64,000 nucleotides of DNA from Allopontixanthobacter sediminis (GTDB lineage Bacteria > Pseudomonadota > Alphaproteobacteria > Sphingomonadales > Sphingomonadaceae): positions 744,001 through 808,000 of the forward strand of contig NZ_WTYL01000002.1 in assembly GCF_009828115.1 (NCBI RefSeq), written 5' to 3'. Below are positions 33,651 to 37,581 of the stretch, one piece after another. Below the pieces are notes generated by a model, which saw only the letters and a list, made by a program, of their open reading frames with translations, did no database searches and was not told the origin of the DNA. Positions within the stretch are counted from its first letter, which is position 1, and every line of letters starts with the position of its first letter. Both the position numbers and the translations under genes were made by a program.

Positions 33651-35324
33651 ATGACGACCCAGCCCCCGCCGACCACCCATCCCCGCACCGCGCTTTCACT
33701 GGACCGCAGGAGCCTGTTCCGGGCCGGTGTGCTGGGGGCGGGGCTCGCCGCCGCGCCGTTCGCCGCTGCAGCGTCCACCATGCGCGGGTTCACCCACGGG
33801 GTGGCGAGCGGGGAGCCGGGACCGGCGCAGGTTTTGCTGTGGACCCGCTACGTCGGCGATGCGTCCGCCACCCTGCGTTACGAAGTCAGCGAGACCACCG
33901 ATTTCGGCAGGGTTGTTTCGGGCGGGAACGTGGATGCGCTCCCCGAACGCGATGGCTGCGTCAAGCCGATTGCGACAGGGCTGGAGCCCGACCGCTGGTA
34001 TTATTACCGCTTCATCGCGCCGGGCGGAGCAGTCTCCGATATCGGCCGCACCCGCACGCTCCCGGTGGGTGAAACTCCGCGGTTCCGGCTGGCAGTGGTC
34101 GGCTGCTCAAACTTCGGGTTCGGGTGGTTCAACGGTTACGCCCACATCGCGGAGACGGACGAAACCGACCTGGTGATCCACACCGGCGACTACATCTATG
34201 AATACGGTGCGGGGACCTATCCCGCGGCGAAGGATGCCCTGCCGGGGCGGTTGCTCGATCCACGGTCGGAAATCGTCGCGCTCGCCGATTACCGTCTCCG
34301 TTATGCGACGTATCGCAGCGATCCCGACCTCCAGCGGCTGCACCAGCTGTTCCCGGTGGTTGCCGTGCCCGACGACCACGAAAGCGCGAACGACGCGTAC
34401 CGGGATGGCGCGGAAAACCACCAGCCAGACATCGAGGGTGAATGGGAGGTCCGCAAGCGCGCAGCGATGCAGGCCTACCGTGAATGGATGCCGATATCGG
34501 ACGAGCCCTGGGCAAAATACGATGTCGGAACCCTCGCCACGATCTTCCGGCTCGAAACACGGCTGGTTGGCCGCGATAAGCCTTTCGACATGTCCGACAT
34601 CGTGAAGGGAGTCGAAAGCGATCCGGACAAACTCGCCGCCGCGCTCGACACATTCCGCGACGGCGCGTGGCGCAATCCGGAACGCAGCCTGATGGGGCCC
34701 GCGCAGGAGGCGTGGCTGTACGACGGGGTTCGCGAATCGCGTCGCTCGGGCACGACCTGGCAGGTGCTGGCGCAGCAAATCGTGATGTCGAGCATGACCC
34801 TGTCGCTGCCTGACCTCGACGGAGTGATCGACGGGCTTCCCGAAAATGTCCGCCAGAGGCTGAAGGTCGTCAACGCCACTACGCAGGCCGGCTTGCCGTT
34901 CAACATGGACGCGTGGGACGGTTACCCGGCCGCGCGCGACCGCTTGCTCGGCGCGGCGCAGGACGCGAACGCCAATATGGTGGTGCTGGCGGGCGACAGC
35001 CACAACGGCTGGGCGTCGAACCTGGACCGGGGCGGCGCGGCGGCGGGGATAGAGTTCGCCGGACATTCGGTGACTTCGCCCGGCGCGGAATATTACCTCC
35101 CGCTGCTGAAGCCTCAGGAATTCGCCGCCCGGCAAGTAGCAGGCAACGCGCAATTGCAATGGGCGGACACCGGCCAGCGCGGCTATATGGCGGTCGAACT
35201 CACTCCCGCCCGGATCACCACCGACTATCACTTCCTGCAAGGGATCAGGACGCGGTCCACCGTGCTGGCCGGAACGAAACGGATCACCAGCGAGGCAGGC
35301 AGCCAAACGCTCGACGTAGGTTGA
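33651..35324 (+). CDS. phoD: Alkaline phosphatase D family protein, Tat-exported
   Basis: 557 residues. The N-terminus has a twin-arginine signal (DRRSLFRAGVLGAG, cleavage near AAAAS), as usual for PhoD, which binds its metals before export. GVASGEPGPAQVLLWTR opens the mature protein; metal-binding blocks include HTGDYIYEYG, PDDHESAND and LAGDSHNGW. PhoD enzymes release phosphate from mono- and diesters in the periplasm using iron and calcium. No clear Pho box was found. Its last codons overlap the promoter proposed for the thrS leader. Confidence 0.93.
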   Translation: MTTQPPPTTHPRTALSLDRRSLFRAGVLGAGLAAAPFAAAASTMRGFTHGVASGEPGPAQVLLWTRYVGDASATLRYEVSETTDFGRVVSGGNVDALPERDGCVKPIATGLEPDRWYYYRFIAPGGAVSDIGRTRTLPVGETPRFRLAVVGCSNFGFGWFNGYAHIAETDETDLVIHTGDYIYEYGAGTYPAAKDALPGRLLDPRSEIVALADYRLRYATYRSDPDLQRLHQLFPVVAVPDDHESANDAYRDGAENHQPDIEGEWEVRKRAAMQAYREWMPISDEPWAKYDVGTLATIFRLETRLVGRDKPFDMSDIVKGVESDPDKLAAALDTFRDGAWRNPERSLMGPAQEAWLYDGVRESRRSGTTWQVLAQQIVMSSMTLSLPDLDGVIDGLPENVRQRLKVVNATTQAGLPFNMDAWDGYPAARDRLLGAAQDANANMVVLAGDSHNGWASNLDRGGAAAGIEFAGHSVTSPGAEYYLPLLKPQEFAARQVAGNAQLQWADTGQRGYMAVELTPARITTDYHFLQGIRTRSTVLAGTKRITSEAGSQTLDVG

Positions 35325-35349
35325 TGCGCTGCAACGCTGCTGCTATGGC
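35321..35349 (+). promoter_or_regulatory. Promoter of the thrS leader, inside the end of phoD
   Basis: TTGATG (35321-35326) and TATGGC (35344-35349) are separated by exactly 17 bases. The start point expected seven bases after the -10 box is 35356, the A of the leader peptide ATG, so the transcript would have no 5' leader. The rhizobial trp leader is a known precedent for such leaderless attenuator transcripts. The -10 match is only moderate (TAT conserved). Confidence 0.5.
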
Positions 35350-35355
35350 TGCGGC

Positions 35356-35427
35356 ATGACGCACATGCGCACCTTGACCACGACCACTACCACCCGGATC
35401 ACTCCGGGGCGGTTGGTCGCGGCCTGA
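35356..35427 (+). CDS. Threonine-rich leader peptide upstream of thrS
   Basis: 23 codons: the peptide starts MTHMRTLTTTTTTRITPG and ends in LVAA before TGA (35425-35427). Nine of 23 residues are Thr, with six consecutive Thr codons at 35377-35394 and another at 35401. It lies 132 bases upstream of thrS on the same strand. Runs of codons for the amino acid handled by the downstream gene are the signature of ribosome-mediated attenuation. No good ribosome-binding site precedes it, consistent with the leaderless transcript proposed. It is not likely to have a function as a protein. Confidence 0.8.
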   Translation: MTHMRTLTTTTTTRITPGRLVAA

Positions 35428-35549
35428 TCCGCAGCCACCGTCGCCCGGTTTCGGGCGGCATGGTGTCACCTCCCGAAGCTGACATTCTCCCGACACCGGA
35501 CTTCCGGCGCGCGCTGCATTGTGCCATGGCGCGCTCAAAGAACAGGTGA
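35381..35549 (+). promoter_or_regulatory. Candidate attenuator and SD-sequestering region of thrS
   Basis: By hand the RNA offers a chain of alternative pairings. Stem 0: 35381-35386 with 35414-35419 plus CCCGG/CCGGG (35393-35397/35404-35408), enclosing the Thr codons. Stem A: 35410-35440, with the leader stop codon in its loop. Stem B: 35436-35465, with an 8-pair GC-rich core (tetraloop GTTT). Stem C: GGTGTC (35462-35467) with GACACC (35492-35497). Sequestration D: TCACCT (35466-35471) with AGGTGA (35544-35549), the thrS ribosome-binding site. 0/A, A/B, B/C and C/D exclude each other pairwise. No T tract follows any stem, so control of translation is more likely than a simple terminator. Confidence 0.6.
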
Positions 35550-35559
35550 GACAGTTTCG

Positions 35560-37581
35560 ATGAGTGAAATGCTGAAGATCAGCCTGCCCGATGGTTCGGT
35601 GCGCGAAATGCCGCAGGGTTCGACACCTGCCGATGTGGCCGCCGCGATCGGGCCCGGCCTGGCAAAGGCCGCGCTGGCCGCCCGCGTGGACGGCGAAGTG
35701 CGCGATATCATGCGGCCGTTCGACGGCGACACACGGCTGGAACTGATCACCAGCCGGGACGAGGCCGACGCGCTGGAACTGGTGCGGCACGATTACGCCC
35801 ACGTGCTCGCCGAAGCGGTCCAGGCGCTGTGGCCCGGCACGCAGATCACCTTTGGCCCATCGACCGACGACGGGTTCTATTACGACGTGATGGCTCCGGC
35901 TGGCCGCGAACCGTTCGGCATGGACGATCTGCCCGCGATCGAAGAAAAGATGCGCGAGATCATCAAGGCCGACAAGCCGCTGATCCGCGAAGTGTGGTCC
36001 CGTCAGGAACTGATCGACAAGTGGCAGGCCGATGGCGAGACGTTCAAGGCCGAATGGGCGAACGAATTGCCCGAAGGCGAAGAGCTGACGGTCTATCGCA
36101 GCGGCGCCAAGGATACCGAAAATTCCTGGCTCGACATGTGCCGCGGCCCGCATCTGGCGAGCACCGGCAAGCTCGACCCGCAGGCGTTCAAGCTGATGCG
36201 TGTGGCGGGCGCCTATTGGCGCGGCGACCAGAAGAACGCGCAATTGACGCGCATTTACGGCACCGGCTGGCTGAACAAGAAACAGCTGAACGAACATCTG
36301 GTGCGGCTGGAAGAAGCCGCCAAGCGCGACCACCGCAAGCTGGGCCGCGAGATGGATTTGTTCCACTTGCAGGAAGAAGCCCACGGCAGCGTGTTCTGGC
36401 ATCCCAAGGGCTACAAGATCTGGCGCGAGCTGGAAGCCTATATGCGCCGGATGATGGACAATGGCGGCTACCGCGAAATCAAGACCCCGCAGGTGATGGA
36501 CGCGCGCCAGTGGGAACAGTCCGGCCATTGGGGCAAGTACCGCGAAAACATGTTCGTCATTCCCGACGAAGTGCCCAACGTCGATGACGAAGGTCCAGTC
36601 ATTTCCGGCGACGCGCAGTGGATGGCGCTGAAGCCGATGAATTGCCCGGCGCATGTGCTGGTCTTCAAGCAGGGCATCACGTCTTACCGCGACCTCCCGA
36701 TCCGGCTGGGCGAGATGGGCTGCTGCCACCGTAACGAACCGCACGGCGCGCTCCACGGGCTGATGCGGGTGCGCCAGTTCACGCAGGACGATGCGCATAT
36801 CTTCTGCACCGAGGATCAGGTGATCGCCGAAGTGCGGCAGTTCTGCGAACTCGCCAGCCGGGTTTACAGGGACCTCGGCTTCGAGAAATTCGCGATCAAG
36901 CTCGCAACGCGCCCGGATCAGCGCTTCGGAAGCGACGCCGACTGGGACAAGGCCGAGGACGAACTGCGCAACGCGGTGATCGAAGCGGGCATGGCCACCG
37001 AGGAATTCGGCTGGGAAGAACTGCCCGGCGAAGGCGCGTTCTACGCCCCCAAGCTGGAATGGCACCTGACCGATGCAATCGGGCGGACGTGGCAGGTCGG
37101 CACGATCCAGTCCGACCGCGTGCTGCCAGACCGCCTCGACGCGCATTACATCGGCGAAGACGGCGACAAGCACCGCCCGGTCATGCTGCACCGCGCGATT
37201 TTCGGATCGTACGAGCGCTTCATCGGTATTCTGATCGAAAACTACGCTGGCAAGCTGCCCCTGTGGCTGGCTCCGGTGCAGGCGGTGGTCGCCACCATCG
37301 TTTCGGACGCGGACGACTATGCGCAGACCGTGCTCGCCCGCCTGCAGCAAGCCGGTATTCGCGCCGAACTCGATGTGCGTAACGAGAAGATCAACTACAA
37401 GGTGCGCGACCATTCGGTGAAGAAGGTTCCGCACCTGCTGGTGGTCGGCAACCGGGAGGCGGAGGAAGGCACCGTCGCCATTCGCACGCTGGGCGAACAG
37501 CAGCAGAAATTCGTCTCGCTGGACGAAGCGATTGCGATGCTGAAGGCCGAGGCAACCGCACCGGACCTGCGGGCAAGCTGA
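35560..37581 (+). CDS. thrS: Threonine--tRNA ligase
   Basis: 673 residues, full length. Domains in order: TGS (about 1-62), the editing domain with HxxxH ([11 protein letters not shown]) and a later C-x3-H (CRGPH), the class II catalytic core with motif MNCPAH whose Cys binds zinc, motif 2 around [20 protein letters not shown] and motif 3, then the anticodon-binding domain from about residue 565. The ATG at 35560 follows AGGTGAGAC; an upstream GTG at 35521 is in frame but without support. Expression is probably controlled by the Thr-rich leader just upstream. Confidence 0.97.

Follow-up and report, generated by a model that had tools for sequence, protein, structure and literature searches.

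A putative threonine-sensing leader-peptide attenuator upstream of thrS in Allopontixanthobacter sediminis and related genomes

The threonyl-tRNA synthetase gene thrS of Allopontixanthobacter sediminis is preceded by a short frame rich in threonine codons and by RNA helices that exclude one another, and we consider it likely that the region acts as a threonine-sensing, ribosome-mediated attenuator of thrS. The analysis covered a stretch of 64,000 nucleotides (the window, to which all positions refer) together with thrS upstream regions of related genomes. Comparison with these relatives leaves the sensor and the switch well supported, and the leader switch probably raises the amount of the synthetase when threonyl-tRNA runs short. 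The thrS leader would then be a variant of leader-peptide attenuation with a well supported sensor and a putative output of no standard form.

Leader frame, distribution and promoters

In the window the leader frame has 23 codons, nine of which encode threonine, six of them in a row, and its stop codon ends 132 bases upstream of the thrS ATG at 35560 (Table 1), just as the preliminary description had reported. Among frames of up to 45 codons, a run of at least four threonine codons was found in 93/184 distinct related thrS upstream regions and a run of at least six in 55/184 (99/190 and 59/190 with near copies included), compared to 0.21% and 0, respectively, of 3800 dinucleotide shuffles. Judged by this comparison of sequences, a threonine-run leader frame before thrS is not due to chance, and the conservation of threonine codons that the preliminary description had put forward as a check is borne out. 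All four synonymous codons are used across 97 leaders (ACC 385, ACT 153, ACG 141 and ACA 57), which argues that it is the coding of threonine that is conserved and not only the RNA sequence, and this synonymous variation suggests selection on threonine itself. The run ranges in length from 2 to 9 and the N-terminus of the frame is variable as well.

The RNA model R1, constructed in this work, matched 140/396 Sphingomonadales genomes, all in the family of the window and spread over 23/84 genera; 96 of 99 sources were matched at E 1e-6. Upstream of thrS lay 139 of the 141 matches, 112 by coordinates and 27 by reading the locus, the remaining two being weak matches (E 0.002 and 0.009). By genome comparison the link of the RNA element to thrS is firm. 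Among the relatives that carry the leader are Pelagerythrobacter marinus, Croceicoccus sediminis, Parerythrobacter lacustris, Novosphingobium beihaiensis and Erythrobacter ramosus. No R1 match was present in 38/150 genomes of the family with a placed thrS, and the device is therefore dispensable. In a sample of the class (289 genomes), three members of the window's family matched R1 strongly and six other genomes weakly (E 0.002–0.007), and a search for thrS at the loci of these six found none there. We took the weak matches outside the family, the match in G334 and the second match in G293 as chance.

The 97 leaders are what remains of 104 flagged upstream regions after removal of L152, L163, L164 and L190, which have no real leader, of L036 and L122, which were dropped for odd spacing although R1 matches both, and of the window itself (L001). 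For alignment A1 (94 sequences) the window was added back, and L092 and L094 (hard to align, with weak R1 matches) and L172 and L181 (near copies of L156) were left out; alignment A2 keeps 61 of the 67 sequences left by thinning at 80% identity. The 77 upstream regions counted as leader-less exclude L022, L030, L161, L176 and L187, where a leader lies further up, and L169 and L185, where the frame scan had missed one.

The gene upstream of the leader ends at 35324. A strict consensus scan of the window found no promoter before the leader, and by eye we propose a promoter P1 whose −10 element (TATGGC) ends six bases 5′ of the leader ATG, so that transcription is predicted to start (+1) at the A of the ATG or at an adjacent base. 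A permissive −35/−10 pattern precedes 86/97 leaders, and in 69 of these 86 a gap of 6–7 bases separates the end of the −10 from a start codon. When shifted by −60, −90, −120, +40 and +80 bases the same scan hit 4, 6, 8, 37 and 8 of the 97, the +40 shift (37/97) being one that can still touch the promoter. Since these promoter-like pairs sit so close to the leader start codons, the leader mRNA is probably leaderless.

Between helix C and thrS lies a further element, CTT-N21-[CT]A, with a 3′ part that most often reads CATGGC or CATGGG. It was found in 91/97 leader-bearing and 35/77 leader-less upstream regions, with 17/97 and 6/77 in a control shifted by 150 bases, and because it also occurs without a leader we read it as a probable, if unproven, separate (basal) promoter. 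In the leader-less L009, L023, L121 and L160 a CTT...CATGG-like element is kept before the thrS start codon, and in another leader-less relative, L041, a GC-rich repeat that resembles a hairpin (TTTGCCCGC...GCGGGCAA) directly covers the thrS start region. A hairpin D over the CTT...CATGGC element was set aside as weakly supported (t −1.8 to −3.2), the element also preceding leader-less thrS genes. A helix E that would join the CTT element to the 3′ strand of C (CACCG:CGGTG in some species) looked attractive by eye and was set aside too, the pair C6:D1 giving t −0.7 (duplex) and −1.6 (hairpin). We also dropped the GTG at 35521 as an in-frame start of a longer thrS, since frame and spacing change among the relatives viewed by eye.

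Alternative helices and the proposed switch

Table 1. Positions, in the window, of features of the thrS leader region.
Feature	Positions	Strand	Basis
Proposed promoter P1: TTGATG (35321-35326), 17 bases, TATGGC (35344-35349)	35321..35349	+	proposed by eye
Threonine leader peptide frame, MTHMRTLTTTTTTRITPGRLVAA followed by the stop	35356..35427	+	window sequence; kept in relatives
Run of six threonine codons (codons 8-13)	35377..35394	+	window sequence
Stem 0: threonine codons paired with codons of the leader C-terminal tail	about 35378..35422	+	-27.2 kcal/mol in the window (mean -22.1); weak covariation (t -2.1)
Stem A: leader codons for P-G-R-L-V-A-A paired with post-stop RNA; the loop holds the stop codon	35404..35448	+	native vs swapped t -5.8, with longer segments
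Stem B (S3:S4), GC-rich, exclusive with A	35440..35459	+	covariation; hairpin swap test
Helix 4:5: 35449-35458 with 35469-35478, exclusive with B	35449..35478	+	strong covariation
Helix C: GGTGTC (35462-35467) paired to GACACC (35492-35497); interleaved with 4:5	35462..35497	+	covariation
CTT-N21-CATGGC element, 3′ of C and 5′ of thrS; may be a basal promoter (P2) and is not clearly an RNA element	35501..35530	+	putative assignment
AGGTGA, thrS Shine-Dalgarno	35544..35549	+	window sequence; conserved sequestration argued against
thrS, threonyl-tRNA synthetase, 673 aa	35560..37581	+	Pfam tRNA-synt_2b, TGS, tRNA_SAD, HGTP_anticodon

Folded whole, positions 35350-35575 reach −98.3 kcal/mol (z −2.9). 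The stems 0, A, B and C that had been drawn by hand in the preliminary description, with the leader stop in the loop of A, all exist in the window as complementary segments, and the compensatory changes it had suggested looking for in relatives were found in A, B and C; what it missed is helix 4:5, the strongest covarying segment pair of all. This emerged from a swap test on the leader RNA of the 67 thinned sequences, in which the native duplex energies of 105 pairs among 15 segments were compared with those obtained with the segments of other species. The three top pairs of the 105 were S4:S5 at t −8.3, C5:C6 at t −7.8 and, at t −4.6, the post-stop segment with the leader tail, followed by segment 5 with the thrS start codons (t −2.3) and with the Shine-Dalgarno region (t −2.0), values that are weak for 105 tests. 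For stem B the duplex scored weakly (t −1.0) and the hairpin better (t −3.5).

Alignments gave a similar picture. On A2, which was not fitted to the helices, 94.5% of the cells in 4:5 are paired, 5/9 pairs show double changes and 0/500 shuffles reach the covariation score. On the model-fitted alignment A3, 4:5 together with C is 90.8% paired with 141 double-changed cells against 42 in shuffles; the counts for B and C lean towards these helices because A3 was fitted to them, and they stand at 93.4% paired and 132 double-changed cells against 35 in shuffles for B with C, at 98.3% paired and 4/6 double-changed pairs for the main helix of B (one pair being GC in 50, AU in 26 and GU in 16), and at 89.8% paired with double changes in 6/6 pairs for C. 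Stem A is paired in 71.7% of cells, with 91 double-changed cells against 54 in shuffles; its inner helix is formed in 60%, its innermost pair in 50% and its outermost two pairs in 53%. Codon bias contributes to the pairing of 0 and A, both being located in coding sequence. When the partner strands were slid against each other, covariation score and paired cells dropped in every case, and two slides equalled or exceeded the 13 double-changed pairs of A. The number of double-changed pairs taken alone is not far above shuffles, as 20/500 reach the count for A and likewise for 4:5 with C. Mean energies are balanced, at −22.1 (0), −27.7 (A), −12.8 (B), −16.2 (4:5) and −10.9 kcal/mol (C region).

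As the preliminary description had proposed, A and B are alternatives, for both use the strand 35440-35448. B and 4:5 in turn share most of the 3′ strand of B, and with strands shared in this way A excludes B and B excludes 4:5, leaving A plus 4:5 on one side and B on the other. Helix C does not overlap B and thus fits the B state, so that its earlier placement in the starved state does not hold and C is more naturally part of the replete one; it interleaves with 4:5. Covariation leaves the set A, B and 4:5 well supported as a real switch. The region has the marks of an attenuator in the broad sense, with a short frame holding a codon run for the amino acid tied to the gene and mutually exclusive helices, one of which uses the 3′ part of the leader frame.

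We infer ribosome stalling and the direction of the switch, the latter from established attenuation logic. With enough threonyl-tRNA, the ribosome would reach the stop codon and cover the strand needed by A, B would form, and C could form beside it, giving low expression. When threonyl-tRNA is scarce, the ribosome would stall in the threonine run, with stem 0 opened and the strand needed by A left uncovered. Stem A would then form around the stop codon and use up the 5′ strand of B, whose 3′ strand, now unpaired, would join segment 5 as 4:5; alone or with C as an H-type pseudoknot, 4:5 would give high expression.

Output on thrS and rival readings

A scan of 35200-35700 found 0 terminator-like sites, in agreement with the earlier remark that no T tract follows B, and the region does not have the form of a classical transcription attenuator. 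Viewed by eye, the alignments of relatives show no general T run downstream of B, C or the CTT element, with one TTTTTT after C in L165. The preliminary description had instead suggested control of thrS at translation, and a translational attenuator in which TCACCT and its flanks sequester the thrS Shine-Dalgarno in the replete state has some points in its favour. In the window TCACCT (35466-35471) is, by eye, fully complementary to AGGTGA (35544-35549), as had been stated, with a predicted cost of opening the start region of 12.9 vs 8.9 kcal/mol; a near-match stands out in two genus mates, L010 and L012, among the leaders viewed by eye; six of 67 species (L043, L186, L147, L148, L046 and L003) exceed all 12 of their swaps; and the pairings of segment 5 with the thrS start region noted above go the same way. 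As a conserved output the complementarity does not stand. In 29 of the 94 leaders the predicted cost of opening the thrS start region is higher in the B state by more than 1 kcal/mol, and in 2 it is lower by as much, in a comparison where the B-state stretch is longer and pairing therefore favoured. When modules were swapped between species (n = 67), native occlusion was no better than swapped (8.3 vs 8.5 kcal/mol, t −1.2), and 5/12 foreign modules occlude thrS of the window at least as well as its own. Many relatives also have, by eye, weak sites of the ACGGA or GAGACG type at variable spacing. With no conserved occlusion of the thrS start in one state over the 94 leaders and 67 swaps, we rejected sequestration as the general output and regard this reading as improbable, while single species may make use of it.

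Given the long and variable distance between the switch and the thrS ribosome-binding site, our guess for the output is premature termination of transcription without a U tract, for example by Rho acting on an exposed segment 5. This segment and its loop are rich in C and poor in G (C 0.37, G 0.16). Six genomes have the match 558–586 bases upstream of thrS, and in the five of these whose loci were read (L307-L311) one gene of 163–168 aa sits between leader and thrS. The one of these five that was searched weakly resembles the Rv2179c 3′-5′ exoribonuclease domain (E 6.5e-4, below the Pfam cut-off). In all five the 3′ strand of C ends 9–13 bases before the start of the intervening gene, adjoining or touching its ribosome-binding site, and where another gene directly follows the leader, helix C probably blocks the ribosome-binding site of that gene.

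Instead of 4:5 simply shutting out C, the two could together make up the active state as an H-type pseudoknot, which would itself raise expression, perhaps by shielding the RNA or by blocking Rho. Both helices covary strongly and mostly abut, without shared bases in 72/94 leaders; connector 1 measures 0–4 bases in 82/94, connector 2 0–3 in 79/94 and the third loop 10–16 in 85/94, and 4:5 and C mostly have 10–12 and 6–9 base pairs. Two interleaved covarying helices with loops compatible with an H-type pseudoknot are thus found in 72/94, which is no proof that they form simultaneously. The best helices overlap by 1–3 bases in the other 22/94, interleaving is equally expected if the two helices exclude one another, and where another gene directly follows, the pseudoknot would also sit against the start of that gene. 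In this model the geometry is that of an H-type pseudoknot and mutual exclusion is equally possible, and we find a pseudoknot that promotes expression conceivable but rather doubtful. The same doubt attaches to the fuller proposal, which we offer tentatively, of a threonine-sensing leader whose on-state pseudoknot would act on the distant synthetase gene and would use no intrinsic terminator and no sequestration of the Shine-Dalgarno. A different reading takes the RNA to be bound by a protein, ThrRS itself or another regulator, with the threonine run not acting as sensor. The strong structure would suit this, and in E. coli thrS is autoregulated by ThrRS binding an operator. A regulatory protein is likewise proposed, in the part of PMC1262725 available to us, for the LEU element, where changed leucine codons are reported to be without effect on regulation, a result that counts against reading the present leader as a threonine-sensing attenuator. 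The threonine run is, however, conserved as amino acids with synonymous variation, which a protein-binding site would not need, and a bound protein as the explanation strikes us as very improbable. In yet another reading the short frame is there by chance or codes for a small protein with a function of its own; in its favour is a tail, R-G-R-x-V-A, that recurs before the stop in many of the relatives' leaders; this tail is explained by its pairing with the RNA after the stop in stem A, the N-terminus and the length of the run vary as described above, and the idea seems to us extremely improbable. The threonine-sensing attenuator, with a putative output, is the reading we consider likely.

Relation to known systems

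Rfam was scanned over 34000-37000 with E up to 5 and gave two snoRNA matches only, below their gathering scores and taken as chance, with no T-box and no match to Thr_leader. The copy in the window matches no Rfam family and the RNA element is without an Rfam counterpart; model R1 would let annotators find this leader RNA. Control of thrS is a textbook case of lineage difference, with an operator in E. coli and T-box control in Firmicutes. A third, alphaproteobacterial solution, with and without a terminator, would show the same sensor coupled to different outputs, and the Sphingomonadales version, without both standard outputs, poses a clear and testable question. If true, a pseudoknot acting at a distance would be a new kind of output for leader-peptide attenuation, present in about a third of the sampled Sphingomonadales genomes. 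Our literature search found no report of a threonine leader before thrS in Alphaproteobacteria, though the surveys of Lopatovskaya 2010 and Vitreschak 2004, which cover attenuators of bacteria and proteobacteria, could contain one. In the portion of PMC2965389 at hand threonyl-tRNA synthetase is named once, for the E. coli autoregulation.

Threonine leaders are found before thrS in another alphaproteobacterial family too. In family f61 a Thr-rich leader precedes thrS in 8/10 upstream regions (L216, L315-L320 and L322), with a hairpin and then TTTTTT before thrS in 7 of these 8; L321, one of the two without a threonine leader, is cut short upstream. This is apparently a separate thrS attenuator, and its combination of leader and terminator means that threonine leaders of the classical form exist before thrS in Alphaproteobacteria and that sensing threonine at thrS fits the biology. 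Family f48 has a threonine run in 1/19 upstream regions (L215, in a frame 241 bases before thrS), and the other 18 have no run above 2.

Among described systems, the nearest in layout are the leader-peptide attenuators of synthetase genes. Classical attenuators are reported before trpS and leuS in Streptomyces, and pheST of gammaproteobacteria is mentioned, in the part of PMC1262725 that we could draw on. Such systems, pheST for example, share with the present leader a short frame rich in cognate codons before a synthetase gene, followed by exclusive helices; they are called classical, whereas here no terminator was found and the extra covarying helices 4:5 and C follow. The LEU element before actinobacterial leuA, as described in the same part of that source (PMC1262725), likewise combines a run of cognate (leucine) codons with a conserved possible pseudoknot and an alternative hairpin; it differs in that its codon run pairs with the Shine-Dalgarno box and in its gene and phylum, and the comparison is one of descriptions only. 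A leaderless trp leader is known from Sinorhizobium, and a leader peptide has been suggested before a gene of the aspartate pathway, according to the accessible part of PMC10117765. The f61 leader shares the Thr-rich frame before thrS and differs by its hairpin with TTTTTT and by its leader tail, and none of the nine class-sample genomes matched by R1 belongs to f61. The thrL attenuator of the enterobacterial thr operon, which is the Thr_leader of Rfam, also has a threonine-coding leader; it differs in controlling biosynthesis, in sensing isoleucine as well and in ending in a terminator, and it gave no Rfam hit here. Control of repZ in IncI plasmids, finally, is similar in that a hairpin is opened when a leader is translated and a pseudoknot can then form; repZ control is not specific to an amino acid, and its pseudoknot adjoins the start of the target gene.
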